A stretch of DNA of 64,000 bases from Spiribacter salilacus (GCF_009649225.1 NZ_WJPP01000002.1:62001-126000); one strand, 5' to 3'; counted from the first letter of the stretch, positions 8,259 through 53,551 are shown. Numbers and translations are program-made. The notes: generated by a model from the sequence alone, not told the origin.

Positions 8259-8267
8259 AGGTCGGGC

Positions 8268-45469: not shown

Positions 45470-45544
45470 GCTCCCATCGTCTAGCGGTTAGGACGCTGCC
45501 CTCTCAAGGCGGAAACCGGGGTTCAAGTCCCCGTGGGAGCACCA
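45470..45544 (+). tRNA. tRNA-Glu (anticodon CTC)
   Basis: A 75-nt cloverleaf. Acceptor GCTCCCA pairs with TGGGAGC, followed by discriminator A and an encoded CCA. The D arm is GTCTAGCGGTTAGGAC. The anticodon arm CTGCC-CTCTCAA-GGCGG puts CTC at positions 34-36 (Glu, codon GAG). The T arm is CCGGG-GTTCAAGT-CCCCG type. The 3' half doubles as the left attachment site of the integrated element, which restores an intact tRNA. Confidence 0.97.
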
Positions 45545-45546
45545 AT
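45501..45546. other. attL of the integrated element
   Basis: 46 bases from the anticodon loop (CTCTCAAGGCGG) through the CCA end and AAT are repeated without mismatch at 52389-52434. The repeat lies in the 3' half of tRNA-Glu, the classical target for tyrosine integrases. Confidence 0.95.
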
Positions 45547-45578
45547 AAAATCAACAACTTACGAAAAACGACTGACCA

Positions 45579-45613
45579 AGTTGTCTAAAAACTGTCTAAA
45601 ATACGTCCCTGAA
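45579..45613 (+). repeat. Left inner-end repeat (probable integrase arm site)
   Basis: AGTTGTCTAAAAACTGTC followed by TAAAATACGTCCCTGAA. The right inner end at 52259-52293 repeats this in the same orientation with few differences. A further copy of the core lies at 48806-48822 in reverse (AGTTGTCTAAAAACAGT). Such repeated sites flanking a tyrosine-integrase att core are typical arm-binding sites; function is inferred. Confidence 0.75.
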
Positions 45614-45679
45614 TAAACCTGAACGGCTGTGGACATTTCCGACCAACGGTAGCGGGCATTTGATGGGCTAACCGGTAGC

Positions 45680-45934
45680 ATGGGGCCACCATTTCAACGC
45701 GACGGTGCAACCATGAAATACCTAAAAGCCAGCCACGCTGGTATTGAAAAAATCCACCCCAGCCAGTTACCCCAGCATGCCCGGGTTATGACTGCGGCAT
45801 GCTTTTGTTACTCAATCCGTGATGCGGACGCACCGATCTACGGGGCGCTGGGTGATAAGACTGCGGAAGCGGTGATGCTGGCGGGTGATCCTGACAAAAT
45901 AGAACGGCTGGCGGGGGTGATATTTCCCGCCTAG
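45680..45934 (+). CDS. Small uncharacterised ORF at the left end of the element
   Basis: 84 residues from the ATG at 45680, or 73 from 45713 (MKYLKASHAGIEKIHPSQLP). The product has no motif that I recognise; it contains ACFCYSIRDADAPIYGALGDKTAEAVML. It is the only plus-strand gene of the element, lying between attL and the terminator, a common place for accessory cargo. Neither start has a strong ribosome site. It could be a chance frame. Confidence 0.45.
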   Translation: MGPPFQRDGATMKYLKASHAGIEKIHPSQLPQHARVMTAACFCYSIRDADAPIYGALGDKTAEAVMLAGDPDKIERLAGVIFPA

Positions 45935-45935
45935 A

Positions 45936-45971
45936 TAAAAACCGCGCCCGCGGGCTTTTTAACGGGCGCGG
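45936..45971 (-). terminator. Rho-independent terminator of the element's leftward operon
   Basis: On the minus strand CCGCGCCCG and CGGGCGCGG form a perfect 9-bp GC stem around a 12-base loop, followed directly by TTTTTAT. It lies 21 bases after the stop of the 237-residue gene. On the plus strand it also follows the 84-residue ORF by one base but lacks a T-run there. Confidence 0.9.
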
Positions 45972-45992
45972 CCCAGCACCTGCGGCTGTGAA

Positions 45993-46706
45993 CTAGTCGA
46001 GACCGCTCAGCTTTAGCAAATTCGCCTCATGCTGCTTTTGCTCGGCTTCAAAAGCCTTTTTCTGCTCATCGTTGGGCGCGGCTTTACTTGCGAGGGCTAG
46101 CGCATGCTGGCCTACCTCGTGAAGGAAAGTATCGGCCTTTTCCAGACGCTCACGCTCGGCCACCACACTGGGGAACAATTGCTTAGCGGCGTAGGCCCTG
46201 AACGCGGGCAGGTCTTTATCCTGCAACCCTGACACCACCGCCGGGGCGGATAGAACCGCGGAAATCACTCGGCGGTTTCCGCTTGATATCGCTTCACGCA
46301 CATAGGCTGTCCGCTGGGCCGCGTCCATCTCTCGCAACGCTTGCCGGGTTTCAGGGCCGTGCGGGTCATCTTTGCCAAGCTCGTCGGTTAGCTTAGAGTC
46401 CAACGCAACGATGCGCTCGCTCAGCTTGCCGCGGGCCTCGGTAACGTGTTTTTGCGACTGCTCCGCTACCCGCTTGGCGTGGCGGTCAATTTCCTGCAAA
46501 TGCGCCGCGGCTGTGCTGTGGGGATTGCGGTTGCTCCGCATCGACAGCAGGCCCTCGAACGCCTCTGACACCCTTTTCTGTTTCCCCAGGGCGTAATTGA
46601 TGTCGGGGTCATCATCTCCGAATGACTCCGCCCAACTTTCAGGAACTTGTAGTGCGGCCGGTATCTCTTTGCTTAGGTCTGGGAGTGCAGGTTGTGCAGC
46701 TTTCAT
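45993..46706 (-). CDS. Coiled-coil protein of unknown function, last gene of the element operon
   Basis: 237 residues, hydrophilic and helical, rich in Ala, Glu, Lys and Gln, with no membrane segment. Segments HLQEIDRHAKRVAEQSQKHVTEARGK and the C-terminal KAFEAEQKQHEANLLKLSGLD look like coiled coils. I do not recognise a family. Its place directly after TerL, where phages have portal or head-assembly genes, makes a scaffold-like or capsid-redirecting role possible, but this is only inference. A ribosome site GAGGACAG precedes the ATG at 46706. Confidence 0.75.
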   Translation of the reverse strand: MKAAQPALPDLSKEIPAALQVPESWAESFGDDDPDINYALGKQKRVSEAFEGLLSMRSNRNPHSTAAAHLQEIDRHAKRVAEQSQKHVTEARGKLSERIVALDSKLTDELGKDDPHGPETRQALREMDAAQRTAYVREAISSGNRRVISAVLSAPAVVSGLQDKDLPAFRAYAAKQLFPSVVAERERLEKADTFLHEVGQHALALASKAAPNDEQKKAFEAEQKQHEANLLKLSGLD

Positions 46707-46812
46707 TTTCTGTCCTCACTGGGTGTTGATAGGTAAACGTGTAAGACTCGCCGGTTGCCTGTCCTCGGCTGTCGACGATGCAAAATCGGATGGTTCGGGT
46801 TTCTCGTCTCAT
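46639..46812 (-). CDS. 57-residue ORF coupled to terL
   Basis: Begins at an ATG that overlaps the terL TGA (ATGA) and reads MRRETRTIRFCIVDSRGQAT and on to a TGA at 46639. The last third overlaps the next gene in another frame. The coupled start and the otherwise empty 102-base gap support a real gene; the Thr/Arg-rich C-terminal end inside the neighbour argues for caution. Confidence 0.45.
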   Translation of the reverse strand: MRRETRTIRFCIVDSRGQATGESYTFTYQHPVRTENESCTTCTPRPKQRDTGRTTSS

Positions 46813-48245
46813 GCCACCCCCCTAATAACGGTGCGTGGGTATTGTTGAAACTCGGCTGTCACGGCATACCGGCTAGCGTCCGCTGCATGGTCTGGGCCGG
46901 TCGTATCAATATCTTCAGGCCGGCGTGGGTCTCTGGGCAGGTTTGGCACGGTGGCCCACCAATACGAGCACCGACGCGAAACGTAAAGGCCGGGCTTGTC
47001 GGGCTTGCCAGCATCCTGCAACAGCCGCGCCATCGTCTGCCAGCCGGCAATACGGCCGCCTTTGTGTGCTCTCTGAAACACCACGCCGTTTCTTTGGAAT
47101 TCCTGCGCTATTGAGCCAGCCTCACCGCCGGTGCGATTAAATATCGCGTCGTCTGCTACCCCTTGCGGTTTCGCTTGCCACTGTTTGCACATGTCCACGA
47201 TGGCCGCGGCTTGTTCTGGAACGGTGAGGCCGGTGCCTTGTGTCTGGTCATCTGGGTGCGCGGTGGTGATTTCATCGAGCAGAATGATCGAGTCTTTTGG
47301 GTACACCACACCATCGGGCGCGGCGTGCCCCGGTGATTTCGCAACCAAATACGTTACGCTCGGGGCGCTTACCCCAAAATCGTGGGCGAGGAAAATCCGC
47401 CAGTCTGTAACTAGCGACGGATCATGATGGTAAATGGATCGTTTGTTTAATCGATGGTTGATGCGGTTGGGCAGATAGGCCCACGGTTCGATCATGCTGC
47501 GGTTTGTATCGAGGACATGGGCGAAATACGCGCCCCTAATCACGCTCCAATCGCCATCCAGCCATGCGCGGGCTAACTCAGGGTCAGTCGCGCAGGATGC
47601 CTTTAGATTCGCCGCGTAACGGTCACGATCGATAAAATCATTATCTCGATAGGTCGAGGCGATGGTCACGAACTGCCCGCCGGTGGCGGCATCCGTAAAC
47701 GGAACCCACGATTGCCGCATTGCATAGCGCTTGGCCAGCCAATGGTGGCCACTACCGCCGGGGTTAGCCAAAATGATAAAACGCAACGGAATGCCGGTTG
47801 GTGCTCTTAGACTACTCCGCAAGCGATCAACCAACGCTGGACTGCTAAACTGCCCCGCTTCATCAACCGCGATATGTGAGAAACCCTTGCCCTGGTATTT
47901 TTGAAAATCCCGCTCGGATTCGAGTTGGTCGAGTTGAATGGTCGCGCCGTTTCCGAGCGTAAACTTGTGCGTGCGTCGGTCATGATTAAACCCTCGATGG
48001 CCGTATACGGCGCTCAGGAATGCGTGCAGGTCGGATTCAAGCTCTGACAGGCCCGGGAAGGAACGGCGTACTACTAGGCACTTAGCCGCTGCTTTCCATT
48101 TCTCACAATGGCGAAGAAATAAAACGAACAACAGCCATGTTTTGCCGCCACCGCGACCGCCTGCTAGGCACAAGTCGAAGGATTCCGGGACGGCCATCGC
48201 GTGACGCTGCCACTCGCTAAGATCGTCCGGACGCTGCTCAGCCAT
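46809..48245 (-). CDS. Phage terminase large subunit (TerL)
   Basis: 478 residues from the ATG at 48245. The motor domain has Walker A GGRGGGKTWLL (about 29-36), a conserved ESERDFQKYQGKGFSHIAVDEAGQF with the Walker B Asp-Glu near 128, and coupling motif ILANPGGSGHHW. The C-terminal RNase-H-like nuclease keeps its acidic residues: FLAHDFGVSAPSVTYL, ILLDEITTAHPDD and GPDHAADASRYAV. It packages DNA into proheads. The frame is open to 48332, but those residues overlap a better small ORF (48238-48345). The catalytic sites look intact. Confidence 0.92.
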   Translation of the reverse strand: MAEQRPDDLSEWQRHAMAVPESFDLCLAGGRGGGKTWLLFVLFLRHCEKWKAAAKCLVVRRSFPGLSELESDLHAFLSAVYGHRGFNHDRRTHKFTLGNGATIQLDQLESERDFQKYQGKGFSHIAVDEAGQFSSPALVDRLRSSLRAPTGIPLRFIILANPGGSGHHWLAKRYAMRQSWVPFTDAATGGQFVTIASTYRDNDFIDRDRYAANLKASCATDPELARAWLDGDWSVIRGAYFAHVLDTNRSMIEPWAYLPNRINHRLNKRSIYHHDPSLVTDWRIFLAHDFGVSAPSVTYLVAKSPGHAAPDGVVYPKDSIILLDEITTAHPDDQTQGTGLTVPEQAAAIVDMCKQWQAKPQGVADDAIFNRTGGEAGSIAQEFQRNGVVFQRAHKGGRIAGWQTMARLLQDAGKPDKPGLYVSRRCSYWWATVPNLPRDPRRPEDIDTTGPDHAADASRYAVTAEFQQYPRTVIRGVA

Positions 48246-48345
48246 CGTCGGATTGCTCCGCCGGCTTGCGGTCTCTTTTCCGTTGCTGGGCCGCCCACCA
48301 TTTGCGAAAGGCCTCGGAGTCGGGCCTGACATACTCTCTAGGCAT
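48238..48345 (-). CDS. 35-residue ORF between terS and terL
   Basis: MPREYVRPDSEAFRKWWAAQ and a charged tail, ending EQSDDG. Its ATG lies inside the last codons of terS (8-base overlap) and its stop overlaps the terL ATG (GATGGCTGA). This chain of overlaps, and a basic, Trp-containing sequence, suggest a real packaging accessory protein translated by coupling. Function unknown. Confidence 0.6.
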   Translation of the reverse strand: MPREYVRPDSEAFRKWWAAQQRKRDRKPAEQSDDG

Positions 48346-48739
48346 CCGTGCCAACCTTCGGCCGCTCACCTAGCGCACTAATGTATTTTTCCGCCGGCAT
48401 CGAGTCCGGCAAGTTGAACACCACCTGAACCGGCTCACCGGCCCCCTGCGAGCCTTTTTCGCTCAGTCCGTGCCTGACTGCCAGCAGGGTGGTTGCGGCC
48501 TTTGTATCGCCTTGTATGGCTCGATCGTAAAGGGCGGCTAAAAGCTGGTCGCGCTCCACGGCCAACGCGTCACGCCAAATAGATGCGCTGCCCGGGTCAT
48601 CGACAATCACCCGGCGGAACTGGGTCAGGGGCATGCCCAGCGCATCGGCGGCTTTGGACTCGGTCAGGGTTCCGCTTGCGGCCATTGCCTCAAGGTGGGC
48701 GCGTGCGCCGGGGGGCAACTTTACGAACGGTCTAGCCAT
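48338..48739 (-). CDS. Phage terminase small subunit (TerS)
   Basis: 133 residues with an N-terminal helix-turn-helix (GTLTESKAADALGMPLTQFRRVIVDDPGSASIWRDAL), a middle helix (RDQLLAALYDRAIQGDTKAATTLLAVRHGL) and a C-terminal tail with VQVVFNLPDSMP. This layout is that of small terminases that recognise the pac/cos site. Immediately upstream of terL. GAGGGATTAAG precedes the ATG. Confidence 0.85.
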   Translation of the reverse strand: MARPFVKLPPGARAHLEAMAASGTLTESKAADALGMPLTQFRRVIVDDPGSASIWRDALAVERDQLLAALYDRAIQGDTKAATTLLAVRHGLSEKGSQGAGEPVQVVFNLPDSMPAEKYISALGERPKVGTDA

Positions 48740-48932
48740 TCTTAATCCCTCTGTATCAGGGGCGGAATCAGGGCGCTAAACCCATCAACTCGCCTCGGTT
48801 TTTTGACTGTTTTTAGACAACTAATAATCATTATTATTTCAGAACAATAGGTTAGTGTCTACGTTTCCGCCTTGAAAAGGCGAATCAAAACGAAAAAAAA
48901 CAAAGCGGAATGCAGGTTTGAATGAAAAATCA
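48740..48932 (-). promoter_or_regulatory. AT-rich intergenic region upstream of the packaging genes
   Basis: 193 bases without a convincing ORF. It contains an inverted copy of the arm-type repeat (48806-48822), an AT-rich run (48822-48846), and a hairpin CGCCTT-GAA-AAGGCG (48873-48887) whose minus-strand copy includes TCAAGGCGGAAAC, a 13-base match to the att core. No terminator T-run follows the hairpin in the direction of transcription. A promoter for terS-terL and a recombinase or regulator site are likely here; exact boxes are not assigned. Confidence 0.5.
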
Positions 48933-49655
48933 TCACAACATTCGCCGCTTTTTCACTGGCTCGGTCTGCCATTGATCGCGCCAGCCTTCAGCATCTAGCC
49001 ATTTCAATGGCGTCATTGGCTGGCTATTGCTTTGTCGGGTATATCGCATCCACCGGTTTGCACCATCAACGATGGTTTTCAACTCAACACCGGAAGCCAC
49101 CAAGGCATCAATGCGGCGCTCACATTCTCTAACTTGTGCCCGCTTAACTCCTGCTTGCCAGAACTGAGGATGTTTATCACTTTGCGGTTGCTCGGATTGA
49201 TTAACCGATTCTTTATCCGATTCATTCATAGATTTGGGTGACATGGGTGTCACTGGTGGGGTGACACTGGCGTCACTGGTTGGTGACATGGGTGTCACTA
49301 GTGGGGTGACATCGGTGTCACTAGTGGGGTTTAGCCGGTAAACATTGGAACGCCCTTGGGTGCGCTCTACCTGAATGAAGCCAGCGCGTGATAATTGGTT
49401 GATGGCTCGAACTACGCTGCGCCGGTCTGCATTCGTGGATTGCGCCAAGGTATTTAGCGACGGCCAGCAGACGCCAGTTTTGGCATTAGCCATATTCGCC
49501 AGCGTGATGGCCACCGTTATTTCAGATCGCCTCAGGGGTGGGTCAGTTTTAGCCAGAGCCTGAAGCCACTCAAGTTTCTGAACCAATGACAAGGTGGTAT
49601 TCTGTTGGTGTACTGCATTGGCCTCGCTATTGGCGGGGCTTTTTTTTTGCCTCAT
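48933..49655 (-). CDS. Winged-helix replication initiator, lambda-O-like, containing iterons
   Basis: 240 residues. The N-terminal part (about 30-110) is a replication-type winged helix: RRSEITVAITLANMANAKTGVCWPSLNTLAQSTNADRRSVVRAINQLSRAGFIQVER. Residues about 112-139 are a low-complexity linker (TPLVTPMSPTSDASVTPPVT) encoded by four DNA palindromes. The C-terminal domain (FWQAGVKRAQVRECERRIDALVASGVE...) may bind a helicase or loader. The order of winged helix, iteron-encoded linker and C-terminal domain is that of lambda O. The ATG overlaps the previous stop by one base (TAATG). Confidence 0.8.
   Translation of the reverse strand: MRQKKSPANSEANAVHQQNTTLSLVQKLEWLQALAKTDPPLRRSEITVAITLANMANAKTGVCWPSLNTLAQSTNADRRSVVRAINQLSRAGFIQVERTQGRSNVYRLNPTSDTDVTPLVTPMSPTSDASVTPPVTPMSPKSMNESDKESVNQSEQPQSDKHPQFWQAGVKRAQVRECERRIDALVASGVELKTIVDGANRWMRYTRQSNSQPMTPLKWLDAEGWRDQWQTEPVKKRRML
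49197..49321. other. Predicted replication origin: four palindromic iterons plus AT-rich stretch
   Basis: Four copies of GTGACA-N4-TGTCAC (the second has CGTCAC) start at 49238, 49261, 49283 and 49306, spaced 23, 22 and 23 bases. To their left (49197-49236) lies an AT-rich stretch. Iterons next to an AT-rich unwinding region inside the initiator gene are the lambda origin design. Function is inferred from this architecture. Confidence 0.75.
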
Positions 49656-50242
49656 TACGCGCCCCCCGTTTTGTAAACCAACGAAAAGCCGGGCAGATAC
49701 TTATCGAGCATCCTCTGAACCGCCTCGGGTGTTGGCTCCACCTGCACCTTGCGCTTGCGGAACCCGGCTTCAATAGCGGCGGCGTTTGGTGACATCGTTC
49801 CGTCAATAACTTCCTTCGCAAGATCGGGGCGGTCGCGCTTGAGCCGGGCAACGGTGTGGCCGACGCTAGTGCCATATGAGTTTGGAAACCGGATATTATC
49901 CGCTTTCCTCTCATCAGCCGGTGTGTACTGATTCGCTCCGGTTGGATTTCCGCGATTTCCAGCCTGCTGCATCTCCCCCTTGATCAACCGCACGGCTTCT
50001 TCATCGTCCTCGCAATAGCGAATCAGGCGGGGCATGGTTAATTCCAAGCCCTGCCACATCCGATGCTCAACGAATGACTGAAAAGACGTAAAAGGCTGGC
50101 CGTTTTTGTCCGTGCGATCGGCCCATAAACGGCGCTCGATTATCGTCGTGATAGCCTGCGGGAAAGTGCTAAACAGATTTCGCGCATCATGGTGGGCAAC
50201 CCGTTGAGCCATTGTGACCACGTTTTGATATTTGTCAGTCAT
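49655..50242 (-). CDS. Uncharacterised element protein, possible DNA-binding
   Basis: 195 residues, no name assigned. The segment GNRGNPTGANQYTPADERKADNIRFPNSYGTSVGHTVARLKRDRPDLAKEVIDGTMSPNAAAIEAGFRKRK splits naturally: a Gly/Asn-rich linker, then a helix-turn-helix-like region (GTSVGHTVARLKRDRP...SPNAAAIEAGF) seen in hypothetical phage and plasmid proteins. The coding strand overlaps the alpA-like gene by 4 bases and the initiator gene by one. A regulatory or replication role fits the place. Confidence 0.7.
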   Translation of the reverse strand: MTDKYQNVVTMAQRVAHHDARNLFSTFPQAITTIIERRLWADRTDKNGQPFTSFQSFVEHRMWQGLELTMPRLIRYCEDDEEAVRLIKGEMQQAGNRGNPTGANQYTPADERKADNIRFPNSYGTSVGHTVARLKRDRPDLAKEVIDGTMSPNAAAIEAGFRKRKVQVEPTPEAVQRMLDKYLPGFSLVYKTGGA

Positions 50243-50439
50243 ACGGCCTCCTGCTCAATCATCTCTGAATGCAGGTCAATCCATGCCTCTGCATCTTTGC
50301 GACGTATCAGGGTGCGCCGGCCAACTTTGATTGCAGGCAGCCGTTTGGCTTTGATCTCCCCGTATAGGGTGGTGCGGCCGATTCCGAGAATCCGGGCGGC
50401 ATCGTTTACGCTGTATGCGATAACTTCGGCTTGGTTCAT
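50239..50439 (-). CDS. AlpA/excisionase-family helix-turn-helix protein
   Basis: 66 residues: SVNDAARILGIGRTTLYGEIKAKRLPAIKVGRRTLIRRKDAEAWID is the MerR-like excisionase fold (HTH_17). Such proteins act as recombination directionality factors or as activators of integrase genes (AlpA in P4-like and PICI elements). A GAGGAAACGAC ribosome site precedes the ATG. It starts the early segment that continues through the initiator gene. Confidence 0.88.
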   Translation of the reverse strand: MNQAEVIAYSVNDAARILGIGRTTLYGEIKAKRLPAIKVGRRTLIRRKDAEAWIDLHSEMIEQEAV

Positions 50440-50493
50440 GTCGTTTCCTCGCGTATGTCAGTGAATACGGTGGAAAGACTCGCAAGCGGGGTT

Positions 50494-50529
50494 GGGGTCA
50501 TTGGCTAGCAATGAACCCCTTTTATTTTG
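50494..50529 (+). terminator. Hairpin with T-run on the plus strand, between two leftward genes
   Basis: GGGGTCATTG and CAATGAACCCC (one bulged A) form a 10-bp stem around GCTAG, followed on the plus strand by TTTTATTTTG. This is a good rho-independent terminator for rightward transcription, although no rightward gene is annotated upstream. On the minus strand the hairpin follows the stop of the 148-residue gene by 2 bases but without a T-run. Confidence 0.6.
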
Positions 50530-50968
50530 TTCGAGGGTTTACCGTGTGACGCTTAAGAGTTGACTCGCTGGGGTAGCCGTCCTGTTCTGCGACTCGCTTT
50601 CTCAATTCTTTAATACCTAATTTCGGGTTTTTCCGGTGCTCAGCATCAACGGCCGCTTGAAGCTCAGCTTTGCGGTGGCTCCAATACGCTTTTGCTTTTC
50701 CGCCAGCGCTCGCACCTTGTAACTGGCGCTCGCCTCGAATGGTGTCGGGGTCAGTATTCCACCCCTTGAGAAGTCGCAAACTATCGAGCTTCGCTAATAT
50801 CAAAATCGCTTTGCTCGACGCGGGCTTGGACGCTAACAACCGCTCGACCGTCTCTAGGTGGCCCTGAATCTCAGGATGCGGAGTATCGCCCCAATACTCT
50901 TTATGGGCTTCGAGCCGCGCTCTAGGGGTGCGGCTGGTTAGCAGGGTTTTAATATCCGCATTGTTCAT
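50522..50968 (-). CDS. Uncharacterised protein coupled to the integrase
   Basis: 148 residues, charged and helical: RARLEAHKEYWGDTPHPEIQGHLETVERLLASKPASSKAILILAKLDSLRLLKGW, then GGKAKAYWSHRKAELQAAVDAEHRKNPKLGIKELRKRVAEQ and a possible C-terminal helix-turn-helix (DGYPSESTLKRHTV). I do not know a family. Its ATG overlaps the integrase stop (ATGA), so it is made together with the integrase and may affect recombination or regulation. Confidence 0.7.
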   Translation of the reverse strand: MNNADIKTLLTSRTPRARLEAHKEYWGDTPHPEIQGHLETVERLLASKPASSKAILILAKLDSLRLLKGWNTDPDTIRGERQLQGASAGGKAKAYWSHRKAELQAAVDAEHRKNPKLGIKELRKRVAEQDGYPSESTLKRHTVNPRTK

Positions 50969-52242
50969 CTTATCGCCACCACTTTATCATCGGCATCAAT
51001 GCCCCAAGTTGGCCCCAACTGGCGTACGGCATCTCGCACATAACTATCCGCTAAATGGCCATAATGTTTCTCGACCATTCGCGTATCGGAATGCCCAAGG
51101 TTTTGCGCCACTACCAGCAAGGGGACACCATTCATGACCGCGTGGCTGGCATAGGTATGGCGCAGACCATGAAAGGTAATATCAACGCCAGCAATCTTGG
51201 CGGCCCTTTTCATGGGCCTTAGCTGCTGTGATTTTTTCCACCTCTGGGTTTCAGGGTGCTCAAACATCGGCTCACGCGGGTTGCGGCCGGCGGTGTGGCG
51301 TTTGAAAAACTCAATGCCTTCATTGTTCAAGTAGACCGGATGCGGTTTTGAGCCTTTTGAATTGCCGGACATAACCAGCCCGCGATCTAAATTGAAGTCA
51401 CCAACATTCATTGCGCCCAAGTCGCCATATCGAGCGCCCGTATAGATAGCGCCCTGCACTAACTCACGAAAACCCGGCTCGCAGGCGTTTACCAGCCGCC
51501 TAACCTCTTCGCCGTTCAAATAAGCGACTCTGGCTTTTGAGACAACTGAAAACGGCTTTACTCGCTTTCCGGCCCATGCGGAATTGGTCTGCACCTTGCC
51601 AGCGAGAAACGCCTCATTCAGACCGGCTTTTAGAACGCTCAAAACTCGATTAGCCGAATCGCGCCGCCGGCGCTGATACTCTTTTTCGTCCTCGGGCTTG
51701 TCGAAAGACGGCTTTGGCTTTGGTTGCCCAAGCTGGTTAAAACCGGGGTGCTCAGCCATGTTCAAAAGCCACTCTCGCAACCGCTCCGAGCTTAAATTGC
51801 TTAATTTGATGTTACCCAGCGCGGGCGTGATATAAAGCTCTGTGCGGCGTCTGCTATCGCCTGACGAACGGCCCTCATTGTCTAGCCGCCGGTGGTAATC
51901 GTCCATTGCATCAGCGACGGTATAGGGGCCGACATGCTTACCGCTGGCGGTTGCCGCAAGGGATGTTGAAAGGGTGCGGGCTTGCGCTTGGGCTTGCGAC
52001 CAACTGAACACCCGAATGCCATCAGCATCTGACATATCATCGGCGATGCCGATATTTTTCAATGCATAGCGCTGCGTCTGCGGGTCATAAAACCTCGCAA
52101 GCCATTTGCCTCCTCTCCTCCCTTTGCGGTAGCCAACATGCAACCCGCTATGGATCGCCCGCCACCGGATTTTGAGGTCAGCCGGAATCGACGACCGCGC
52201 CGCTCGACTATCTACCTTAGCGTCTCTAACTGTTCTGGCCAT
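50965..52242 (-). CDS. int: Tyrosine recombinase / integrase of the tRNA-Glu element
   Basis: 425 residues from the ATG at 52242, which has a perfect GGAGG 8 bases upstream; the frame extends to 52296 without support. The N-terminal arm-binding part includes LKIRWRAIHSGLHVGYRKGRRGGKWLARFY, then a core-binding SAM-like domain and the catalytic domain. Catalytic residues: Arg271 (YTGARYGDL), His358 and Arg361 (HGLRHTYAS), His384 (LGHSDTR) and Tyr394 (KHYGHL). All are present, so the enzyme looks functional. Its promoter overlaps repeated sites that the integrase or AlpA may bind. Confidence 0.96.
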   Translation of the reverse strand: MARTVRDAKVDSRAARSSIPADLKIRWRAIHSGLHVGYRKGRRGGKWLARFYDPQTQRYALKNIGIADDMSDADGIRVFSWSQAQAQARTLSTSLAATASGKHVGPYTVADAMDDYHRRLDNEGRSSGDSRRRTELYITPALGNIKLSNLSSERLREWLLNMAEHPGFNQLGQPKPKPSFDKPEDEKEYQRRRRDSANRVLSVLKAGLNEAFLAGKVQTNSAWAGKRVKPFSVVSKARVAYLNGEEVRRLVNACEPGFRELVQGAIYTGARYGDLGAMNVGDFNLDRGLVMSGNSKGSKPHPVYLNNEGIEFFKRHTAGRNPREPMFEHPETQRWKKSQQLRPMKRAAKIAGVDITFHGLRHTYASHAVMNGVPLLVVAQNLGHSDTRMVEKHYGHLADSYVRDAVRQLGPTWGIDADDKVVAIR

Positions 52243-52258
52243 GATGCGCGCCTCCAAA

Positions 52259-52293
52259 AGTTGTCTAAAAACTGTCGAGAATACGTCGCTGAA
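52259..52293 (+). repeat. Right inner-end repeat (probable integrase arm site)
   Basis: AGTTGTCTAAAAACTGTC then GAGAATACGTCGCTGAA repeats the left inner end (45579-45613) in direct orientation. It lies in the integrase leader, between the promoter and the start codon, so binding there could repress int. Confidence 0.75.
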
Positions 52294-52378
52294 CATTGAC
52301 GAACAGTATAGAACAAGGCGGAAACCGCATCAAGAAAAACAAATACTTAGGTGAACATTAGTGAACAGTAAAACCCCC
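52290..52378. repeat. Pair of 17-bp operator-like repeats around the int promoter
   Basis: TGAACATTGACGAACAG (52290-52306) and TGAACATTAGTGAACAG (52362-52378) match at 14 of 17 bases. Each holds two GAACA half-sites. One overlaps the -10/start region of the int promoter, the other lies about 30 bases upstream of its -35. This looks like a regulator site pair; the binding protein is unknown. Confidence 0.65.
52305..52333 (-). promoter_or_regulatory. Promoter of the integrase operon
   Basis: On the minus strand TTGATG (52333-52328), 17 bases, TATACT (52310-52305). Both hexamers are close to the sigma-70 consensus with ideal spacing. Transcription would start near 52298, 56 bases before the int ATG. 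Confidence 0.75.
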
Positions 52379-52388
52379 CAATAGACCT

Positions 52389-52434
52389 CTCTCAAGGCGG
52401 AAACCGGGGTTCAAGTCCCCGTGGGAGCACCAAT
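52389..52434. other. attR of the integrated element
   Basis: An exact 46-base copy of attL containing only the 3' half of tRNA-Glu (anticodon loop to CCA). The 5' half is missing, so it is not a second tRNA gene. Confidence 0.95.
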
Positions 52435-52490
52435 GAAATCAAAAGCTTACGAAATATAACTGGCCAGCTTGTCTAACAATTGTCTAAAAC
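52435..52490 (+). repeat. Diverged copy of the element's left flank, lying outside attR
   Basis: The 55 bases after attR align without gaps to the 55 bases after attL (45547-45601); I count 44 identities. It includes CTTGTCTAACAATTGTCTAAAA, a degenerate double arm-type site. After an ordinary integration this side should be host DNA, so this is best explained as the remnant of an older related element. Confidence 0.75.
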
Positions 52491-52536
52491 TTCACAACAG
52501 ATGCGGCTGAATCATACTCGACCAAGTCATTCTGAC

Positions 52537-52700
52537 TCATTTTCCAGATAGTGACTCATCATGTAACCCTCTGATTTTACGAAGCCCCGCGGGGCCAGAA
52601 AGGGAAACGATGTCTTTCCATTTCTCATATCGCTTCTGAACTTCAATCGGGGCGCTTTTAAGGCTTTTCGAGACCCGCTTATGCGATTTTCTGAAGGATG
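52537..52700 (-). pseudogene. RelE/HigB-like toxin remnant
   Basis: The reading frame encodes SHKRVSKSLKSAPIEVQKRYEKWKDIVSLSGPAGLRKIRGLHDESLSGK and then a stop. RelE/ParE-type toxins of this kind normally continue with about 25 more residues (W-x-G-x-R-S-S-R-L...YRV). The C-terminal catalytic part is missing and no own start codon is visible after the upstream HicB-like stop, so both ends are damaged. It lies immediately downstream of the HicB-like gene. Confidence 0.65.
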
Positions 52701-52918
52701 TTGGCAAGATCTCGACCAGACGTAGGGGGCGGCAGAGGCTTTTTTTCTCTTTGGTAAAGGTCGATAGCCTCATCTACGATTTCGCAGAGGTGTGCAAAAA
52801 CCTCCTTTTCGTCTGTTCCGTGACAACCTCCATAAATTAACCCTGGGGCACTTCCAACAAAGCATTGGTCTTCTTCAGACCACTCCACAATCTTGGCGTA
52901 AAAGGCACTTTCTTTCAT
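52679..52918 (-). CDS. HicB-like antitoxin-family protein
   Basis: 79 residues: YAKIVEWSEEDQCFVGSAPGLIYGGCHGTDEKEVFAHLCEIVDEAIDLYQREKKPLPPP followed by SGRDLANILQKIA. This is the HicB degraded-RNase-H fold. GGAGTCCAAGCA precedes the ATG. No HicA toxin is next to it; downstream is the broken RelE-like toxin. It belongs to the debris to the right of the integrated element. Confidence 0.8.
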   Translation of the reverse strand: MKESAFYAKIVEWSEEDQCFVGSAPGLIYGGCHGTDEKEVFAHLCEIVDEAIDLYQREKKPLPPPTSGRDLANILQKIA

Positions 52919-53007
52919 TGCTTGGACTCCTGGATTGCCTTTTCTATCGCTCGTATCTCATATTTTTTGGCATCATCCCCAAGGTTGCCAAAAAAATCAC
53001 TCGCCAC
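52915..53007 (-). pseudogene. Short stub upstream of the HicB-like gene
   Basis: A 30-residue frame from a GTG (ASDFFGNLGDDAKKYEIRAI and on) whose TGA overlaps the HicB-like ATG. The overlap suggests the C-terminal end of a former partner gene; its 5' part has been replaced by the ialB-like gene, which it overlaps by 11 bases. It may equally be a chance frame. Confidence 0.3.
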
Positions 53008-53551
53008 TCGTCGGCGGCTGTACGGGCTCGGGCAGCTCGGCTAACGCAAGGCTGCTGCCTTCTAACGAGACTTCAGCCACTAGCGTTTCTTGCTGGCCCA
53101 TGCCGCGGAACCCAACGCGCATGAGCGTGCCGGCACGAAACTGGGCCAGATGCTCTGGGGCCAACAAGGCGATAACCTGGCAGCCGGATGGATAGCACGT
53201 GCTAAACGGCAGTGTGATTTCGTCATTCTCATCAAACTGAACGACCACGCCGGCGCGCAAATCCAAACCAAACGGCATATCTAGCACAATCAGCACCCCT
53301 TGCTGATTACGCAGTAAGGTCACCTCAAGCAAGCGCCCGCCGCCCTGATCATTTTGTACATCAAGCCGCTGCACCATACGGCAGGCCCGCGGTGTGGCTT
53401 CTATACAAACTAACGTCCAGTCACCATAAGTTTCGGTGGTGGTTTCAACTTCTGGTGCTTCTTGGGCTTGTTGGGCCTGTTGGGCCTGCGCTGTTCCCAT
53501 CAATAAAAAACCGGCCAGCAAAAAAGCCATGGCTGTTAACACGCGTTTCAT
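52997..53551 (-). CDS. Invasion-associated locus B (IalB) family protein
   Basis: 184 residues. Signal peptide MKRVLTAMAFLLAGFLLMGTAQAQ, a Gln/Ala repeat, then the IalB core: TETYGDWTLVCIEATPRACRMVQRL, LRNQQGVLIVLDMPFGLDLRAGVVVQFDENDEITLPFSTCYPSGCQVIALL. The two cysteine pairs are typical. Periplasmic; role unknown outside the name-giving Bartonella protein. It is the first clearly chromosomal gene to the right of the element debris. Confidence 0.88.
   Translation of the reverse strand: MKRVLTAMAFLLAGFLLMGTAQAQQAQQAQEAPEVETTTETYGDWTLVCIEATPRACRMVQRLDVQNDQGGGRLLEVTLLRNQQGVLIVLDMPFGLDLRAGVVVQFDENDEITLPFSTCYPSGCQVIALLAPEHLAQFRAGTLMRVGFRGMGQQETLVAEVSLEGSSLALAELPEPVQPPTSGE

Follow-up and report, generated by a model that had tools for sequence, protein, structure and literature searches.

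Our analysis supports the interpretation of a small integrated element of Spiribacter salilacus as a phage satellite that has a complete terminase but no recognisable head genes. The element lies at positions 45501-52434 of the window, that is, the whole stretch of 64,000 nucleotides analysed here (GCF_009649225.1 NZ_WJPP01000002.1:62001-126000), and is a discrete, intact unit of 6.9 kb flanked by perfect 46-bp repeats of a tRNA-Glu 3′ end. We have little doubt that this element and its relatives are satellites and not prophage remnants. This reading had been put forward in the original prediction, made from the sequence alone, and is now supported by a satellite-specific lineage of the large terminase subunit TerL (branch support 100/100), by purifying selection and by complete relatives of 7-12 kb. 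It further appears likely that the satellite DNA is packaged by the TerS-TerL motor that the element encodes, acting at the portal of a helper phage, while a protein we term X redirects the helper heads; here the anatomy is observed and the lifestyle is inferred, without data from induction or particles. Two traits had not been part of the prediction, namely sister elements that encode scaffold and major capsid protein (MCP) but no portal, and X itself as a conserved satellite-only family.

The integration target is a tRNA-Glu (CTC) gene on the plus strand (45470-45544), the 3′ end of which is duplicated at the opposite boundary of the island. Comparison of the repeats bore out the predicted perfect 46-bp pair as attL (45501-45546) and attR (52389-52434). 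A search for empty sites had been proposed together with the prediction, and one was found in a genome of the same genus (G008), where the tRNA-Glu site is unoccupied and where a match to the window from 53024 onward begins within 37 bp of the tRNA-Glu end. The flanks of this empty site are 92% identical on the left and 80% identical over 1 kb on the right. Since the match resumes at 53024, the insertion at tRNA-Glu consists of the island plus 590 bp and reaches 53023 rather than 52434; the predicted extent thus holds for the att-bounded element, but not for the whole insertion. Judging from their sequence, the 590 bp outside attR (52435-53023), which are absent from the G008 empty site and include a diverged version of the arm sequence found next to att, probably represent a scar left by an older element in this tRNA-Glu gene. 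The scar contains two overlapping small ORFs of 78 and 79 aa on the minus strand that look toxin-antitoxin-like by eye and have no Pfam match.

The leftward genes, all on the minus strand, follow the order integrase, 148-aa protein, AlpA-like HTH protein, 195-aa protein, O-like initiator, a gap of 193 bp, TerS, TerL, a 57-aa ORF and X. The tyrosine integrase (50965-52296; PF00589, E=2e-22, and PHROGs) shows legible catalytic R...HxxR...H...Y residues in its translation. A 66-aa AlpA-like regulator or excisionase (50239-50439) matched Pfam HTH_17 and excisionase-regulator PHROGs, and the replication initiator (48933-49655) matched HTH_36 in Pfam and phrog_270/391. Within the initiator gene lie iterons made up of internal 45-bp repeats (49237-49326, repeat family D2) that mark the probable origin. 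An integrase with all catalytic residues, an AlpA-like protein and an initiator with internal iterons, all three part of the original prediction, were therefore recovered. The replication module lacks a primase, whereas relatives carry a primase or helicase. The packaging genes are those for TerS (48338-48739; phrog_4044 and the TerS of relatives) and TerL (46809-48332; ATPase and nuclease, Terminase_3/6N and phrog_2). They are followed by the 57-aa ORF (46639-46812), which overlaps terL and X and has no assigned function, and by X (45993-46706), a 237-aa orphan protein predicted to be all-helical and conserved in the capsid-less members of lineage A (see below). Searches of Pfam, PHROGs and NCBIfam assigned no family to the 148-aa protein (50522-50968), the 195-aa protein (49655-50242) or an 84-aa ORF on the plus strand (45680-45934). 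Pfam and PHROGs assigned none of the island ORFs to a family of portal, capsid, tail or lysis proteins, and tblastn with one MCP and three portal queries against the island was negative as well, in agreement with the predicted lack of head, tail and lysis genes in the 6.9 kb.

The prediction had also placed all genes in one overlapping leftward operon, which is contradicted by the 193-bp gap between the initiator gene and terS. Because this gap holds both the best sigma-70-like match of the region (48833-48861, minus strand; TAGACA-17-AATAAT with TG before the -10) and a copy of an 18-bp motif, the terS-terL-X block is probably driven by a putative promoter of its own. The motif, AGTTGTCTAAAAACWGTC, occurs three times in the 64 kb, always inside the island, where motif counts give an expectation of 0 by chance. 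One copy (AGTTGTCTAAAAACTGTC; 45579-45596, plus strand) lies beside attL as a probable arm or regulator site, a second between the promoter-like site and terS (48805-48822, minus strand) and the third at the 5′ end of the integrase gene (52259-52276, plus strand). The motif might represent a shared regulator site, perhaps of the AlpA-like protein, that couples excision and packaging, as inferred from sequence alone. The leftward block probably ends at an intrinsic terminator (45942-45971, minus strand) with a 9-bp GC stem (CCGCGCCCG/CGGGCGCGG) followed by a minus-strand T-run; it was read directly from the sequence, and its loop of 12 exceeds the limits of the terminator scan.

In phages, TerS picks the DNA, which TerL then drives into the prohead via the portal. 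TerS of the window element hit phrog_4044 at only E=0.0017, yet it is 58-64% identical to the TerS of relatives. For TerL, the annotated start (507 aa) probably lies too far upstream, as homologues begin at residue 30 (window 48245). The predicted integrity of the TerS-TerL pair with its Walker and nuclease motifs was upheld, with Walker A, Walker B and the acidic nuclease residues being invariant across two satellite lineages, A and B. Global identity of the window TerL amounts to 63-66% with the other six of the seven elements that make up lineage A by TerL, to 37-38% with lineage B and to at most 35% with any phage TerL. In the tree, the satellite TerLs of both lineages fall on one side of a branch with 100/100 support; the other side comprises ten phage TerLs and one plasmid copy, a small phage sample taken from the query matches. 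Values of dN/dS for close pairs (0.07-0.19) indicate purifying selection on TerL. In the phage records whose neighbouring genes were inspected, the portal gene comes after TerL. Two small records of the plasmid and phage sets with TerL matches (OY725860, MT836150) turned out to be fragments of ordinary phages in which a portal gene adjoins TerL, and the G022 match likewise belonged to an ordinary phage. No pac or cos site was identified.

The distance of TerL from phage TerLs, together with the fact that satellites often have interference genes beside their packaging genes, leaves room for a reading in which TerL is an interference weapon that poisons or competes with the helper motor at the portal, while the helper terminase packages the satellite DNA. 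Such a poison would need less than a cognate TerS that always adjoins TerL, and it does not fit well with ATPase and nuclease residues kept across lineages and with purifying selection, so that we regard it as unlikely. We rather interpret TerS-TerL as the element's own motor acting on helper proheads, because the pair is conserved and under selection in elements without head genes.

Complete elements among the relatives are 7-12 kb long and equipped with att sites, an integrase, a replication gene, TerS and TerL of their own, and most of them reside at tRNA-Ser or tRNA-Thr. Within lineage A, two IMG/VR contigs are circular, one of 7,743 bp with identical ends of 123 bp (L002) and one of about 8,517 bp with ends of 120 bp at 99% (L004). 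Both encode integrase, a replication gene, TerS, TerL and X, and neither has a head gene. The remaining four (L003, L006, L011, L005), which come from Halovibrio, Marinobacter and IMG/VR contigs, encode, immediately after TerL and in place of X, a scaffold-like protein and a major head protein, the latter matching phrog_247 at E of about 1e-95 in L005 and L006. Gene content in these two sets shows that in lineage A the terminase is constant, whereas X and scaffold plus MCP are interchangeable in position. Portal, protease and connectors were not seen in any of the four (L003:7454-9118, L006:11398-13059, L011:5129-6780, L005:1862-3509). L006 is located on the chromosome of Halovibrio salipaludis YL5-2, L005 is a 3.5-kb Marinobacter MAG contig and, like L011, which is cut at its left end before any integrase, a cut contig. 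L003 and L006 span from 16-bp repeats to tRNA-Ser and contain no unassigned ORF of a size sufficient for a portal. TerS and TerL with scaffold and MCP but without portal thus constitute a partial-head satellite type distinct from the capsid-forming PICIs (cf-PICIs). The trees do not discriminate between gain and loss of MCP in lineage A (AU p=0.064 and 0.243). A satellite-like 7.7-kb contig with both ends cut (L064:3158-6627) encodes TerS, X, a Neck1/tail-completion protein, TerL (49%) and a tail-assembly protein (phrog_169, phrog_32), and this element may also alter tail joining or tail tip assembly.

Lineage B was found with a TerL profile, which led to two genomes (G177 and G212) and from these to the IMG/VR contigs L041, L042, L043 (cut within TerL) and L060-L063. 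Its members number at least eight, two from genomes and no fewer than six from IMG/VR contigs; they have TerS, TerL and a protein X′ but no head genes, and no match to the MCP or portal queries was obtained. The gene order is integrase, AlpA-like protein, primase, serine resolvase and TerS, followed by TerL and X′ in either order. Element ends were located at tRNA-Ser (L019, L020) or tRNA-Thr (L041, L060-L062). Such satellites, the window element among them, are rare in the genomes sampled, with 3/369 in the class sample and 1/398 in the phylum sample under strict cut-offs, both samples including the genome of the window itself.

X had no match in Pfam, PHROGs or NCBIfam, and none was found in phages. 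A search of viral contigs directly with the window X returned nothing, and the X profile recovered, besides itself, only G360 at a good E-value, with G312 matching at 4e-4. AlphaFold predicts an all-helical fold for X with a helix of 45 residues (pLDDT 78, alignment of five rows), for which Foldseek gave no significant match against BFVD and PDB; PDB matches to helical pore-forming toxins were dismissed (E>0.06, TM about 0.2-0.35). X′ of lineage B (248-251 aa) resembles X in its predicted helix order, but this is all they share, as profile comparison between them was negative; X′ is itself under purifying selection (dN/dS 0.15-0.21 in close pairs). From sequence comparison, X is a conserved satellite-only protein family at the site where sisters hold scaffold and capsid genes; in lineage A one replaces the other. 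This position and a predicted helical layout that is scaffold-like might point to X as a minimal capsid or scaffold of the satellite's own, which would make the element capsid-forming via an unrecognised protein. We consider this quite improbable, given that X has only 237 aa, that its predicted fold is all-helical and not mixed alpha/beta as in HK97-type coat proteins, and that a portal is absent from every member read whole. From its position, its wholly helical prediction and its co-occurrence with TerS where no TerL is visible, we infer that X most likely redirects helper head assembly, either in size or at the level of the scaffold. Elements with X or X′ and a TerS-like gene but no visible TerL (L024 and the second element of L060) also make it unlikely that X is a TerL adaptor. 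Satellites with a motor but no head have likely been overlooked, because X is recognised by no annotation library.

That the element could be a prophage remnant bereft of its head, tail and lysis modules hardly remains tenable, for although TerS and TerL are ordinary phage genes and a 590-bp scar adjoins the island, the att pair is perfect, no gene is broken, the same reduced set recurs in other elements and circular contigs, dN/dS is far under 1 and no close relative lies within a full prophage. The original prediction had named two outcomes that would refute it, a close relative forming part of a full prophage with portal and capsid genes, of which none was found, and TerL homologues restricted to decayed prophages, which is not so for a lineage present in complete 7-12 kb elements.

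For a satellite with its own packaging motor, we propose that upon helper infection or induction the AlpA-like protein and integrase would excise a circle, which the initiator would replicate using the replisome of host or helper. TerS would then recognise the element's own DNA and load TerL, which would dock on a helper prohead at its portal and pump the satellite DNA in. X would act on helper head assembly by redirecting size or scaffold, and tails and lysis of the helper would complete the particle. By inference, every member with wholly readable gene content must depend on the helper for its portal. Docking on the portal of a present-day helper is an assumption, because TerL is at most 35% identical to any phage TerL, and no resident helper was found in a search with two portal models only. 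We lean, with some reservation, towards a class of satellites defined by a TerS-TerL core, in which the capsid module is optional (X, or own scaffold and MCP) and the portal is always that of the helper, and in which the satellite motor would therefore work on a foreign portal.

To our knowledge, known satellites either borrow the motor of the helper (P4, PICI, PLE, PICMI) or encode a complete head themselves (cf-PICI). The space between those classes is filled by elements with a motor but no head and by sisters that add a shell but lack a portal. Hallmark genes of P4 are psu, delta, sid and the alpha primase, and no island protein had a family match to any of them in Pfam or PHROGs. Gram-negative PICIs of the EcCICFT073 type share with the window element their size, integrase with AlpA-like regulator, replication gene, chromosomal att site, in some cases terS, and the lack of head and tail genes, but they have at most terS of their own and use the helper TerL, whereas the window element has its own TerL and X (PMC6092414). 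Accordingly, it meets the PICI criteria of an integrase with a specific chromosomal att site, as supported by the empty site in the same genus, and of an AlpA or MerR-type activator near the integrase gene (by HTH_17 and PHROGs, the Pfam AlpA model itself not being matched), but with a complete TerL and its motifs not that of packaging via helper TerL with terS at most. Of the pri/rep replication module with origin expected in PICIs, the element has the O-like initiator and its iterons but no primase. The cf-PICIs are described as encoding capsid, portal, maturation protease, connectors, HNH and both terminases (PMC10690885, PMC13230959). Measured against these descriptions, the window element is alike in being integrative, in its own TerS and TerL and in relying on helper tails, but lacks capsid, portal, maturation protease, connectors and HNH by Pfam and PHROGs, with MCP and portal also negative by tblastn, and in the sisters with MCP and scaffold, too, neither portal nor protease nor connector is seen. 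phi-AH14b of Pseudomonas sp. ANT_H14 has integrase, AlpA and primase, no structural genes and uses helper capsids; it is similar in the first two genes and in lacking structural genes, but its authors found no terminase (PMC4936722). PICMI is likewise small and without capsid-remodelling genes, but this marine satellite sits beside fis and has no packaging-redirecting genes such as terS, whereas the window element is located at tRNA-Glu with TerS and TerL (PMC10803314). The satellite-plasmid TG93 also has a partial packaging and head set (Capsid E, protease, small terminase), but is episomal and has no reported TerL (PMC13230959). No satellite with TerS and TerL but without head genes was found in the literature, although the original VEIME and cf-PICI papers were outside the search and priority is therefore not certain. 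Related elements in other bacteria and in virus metagenomes argue for a lifestyle that recurs rather than for prophage decay, and they suggest that the route between PICI-like and capsid-forming satellites is stepwise. If this is true, the specificity of a terminase for its portal becomes directly testable, as does the role of X, which is conserved, restricted to satellites and clear in its position.

Several additional features were observed in lineage B. A serine resolvase is encoded directly upstream of terS in every element examined (L020:11191-11841, L042:4987-5619, L060-L063) and perhaps resolves multimers or regulates packaging. On L060 (11189-18533), a second satellite-like element with integrase, diverged X′, TerS-like gene and primase lies in tandem at the same tRNA-Thr and is cut by the contig end. 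On L042 (7804-8366), the X′ frame diverges from its homologues near 8259, a frameshift or sequencing error close to the contig end, and on L063 (8817-9707) a GIY-YIG homing endonuclease gene lies between X′ and TerL. As cargo we found a restriction-modification pair of an Eco57I-type methylase and a BsuBI/PstI endonuclease (L041:9310-11922), and an IrrE-domain protein with a member of the Beta_protein family (L020:5822-8217).
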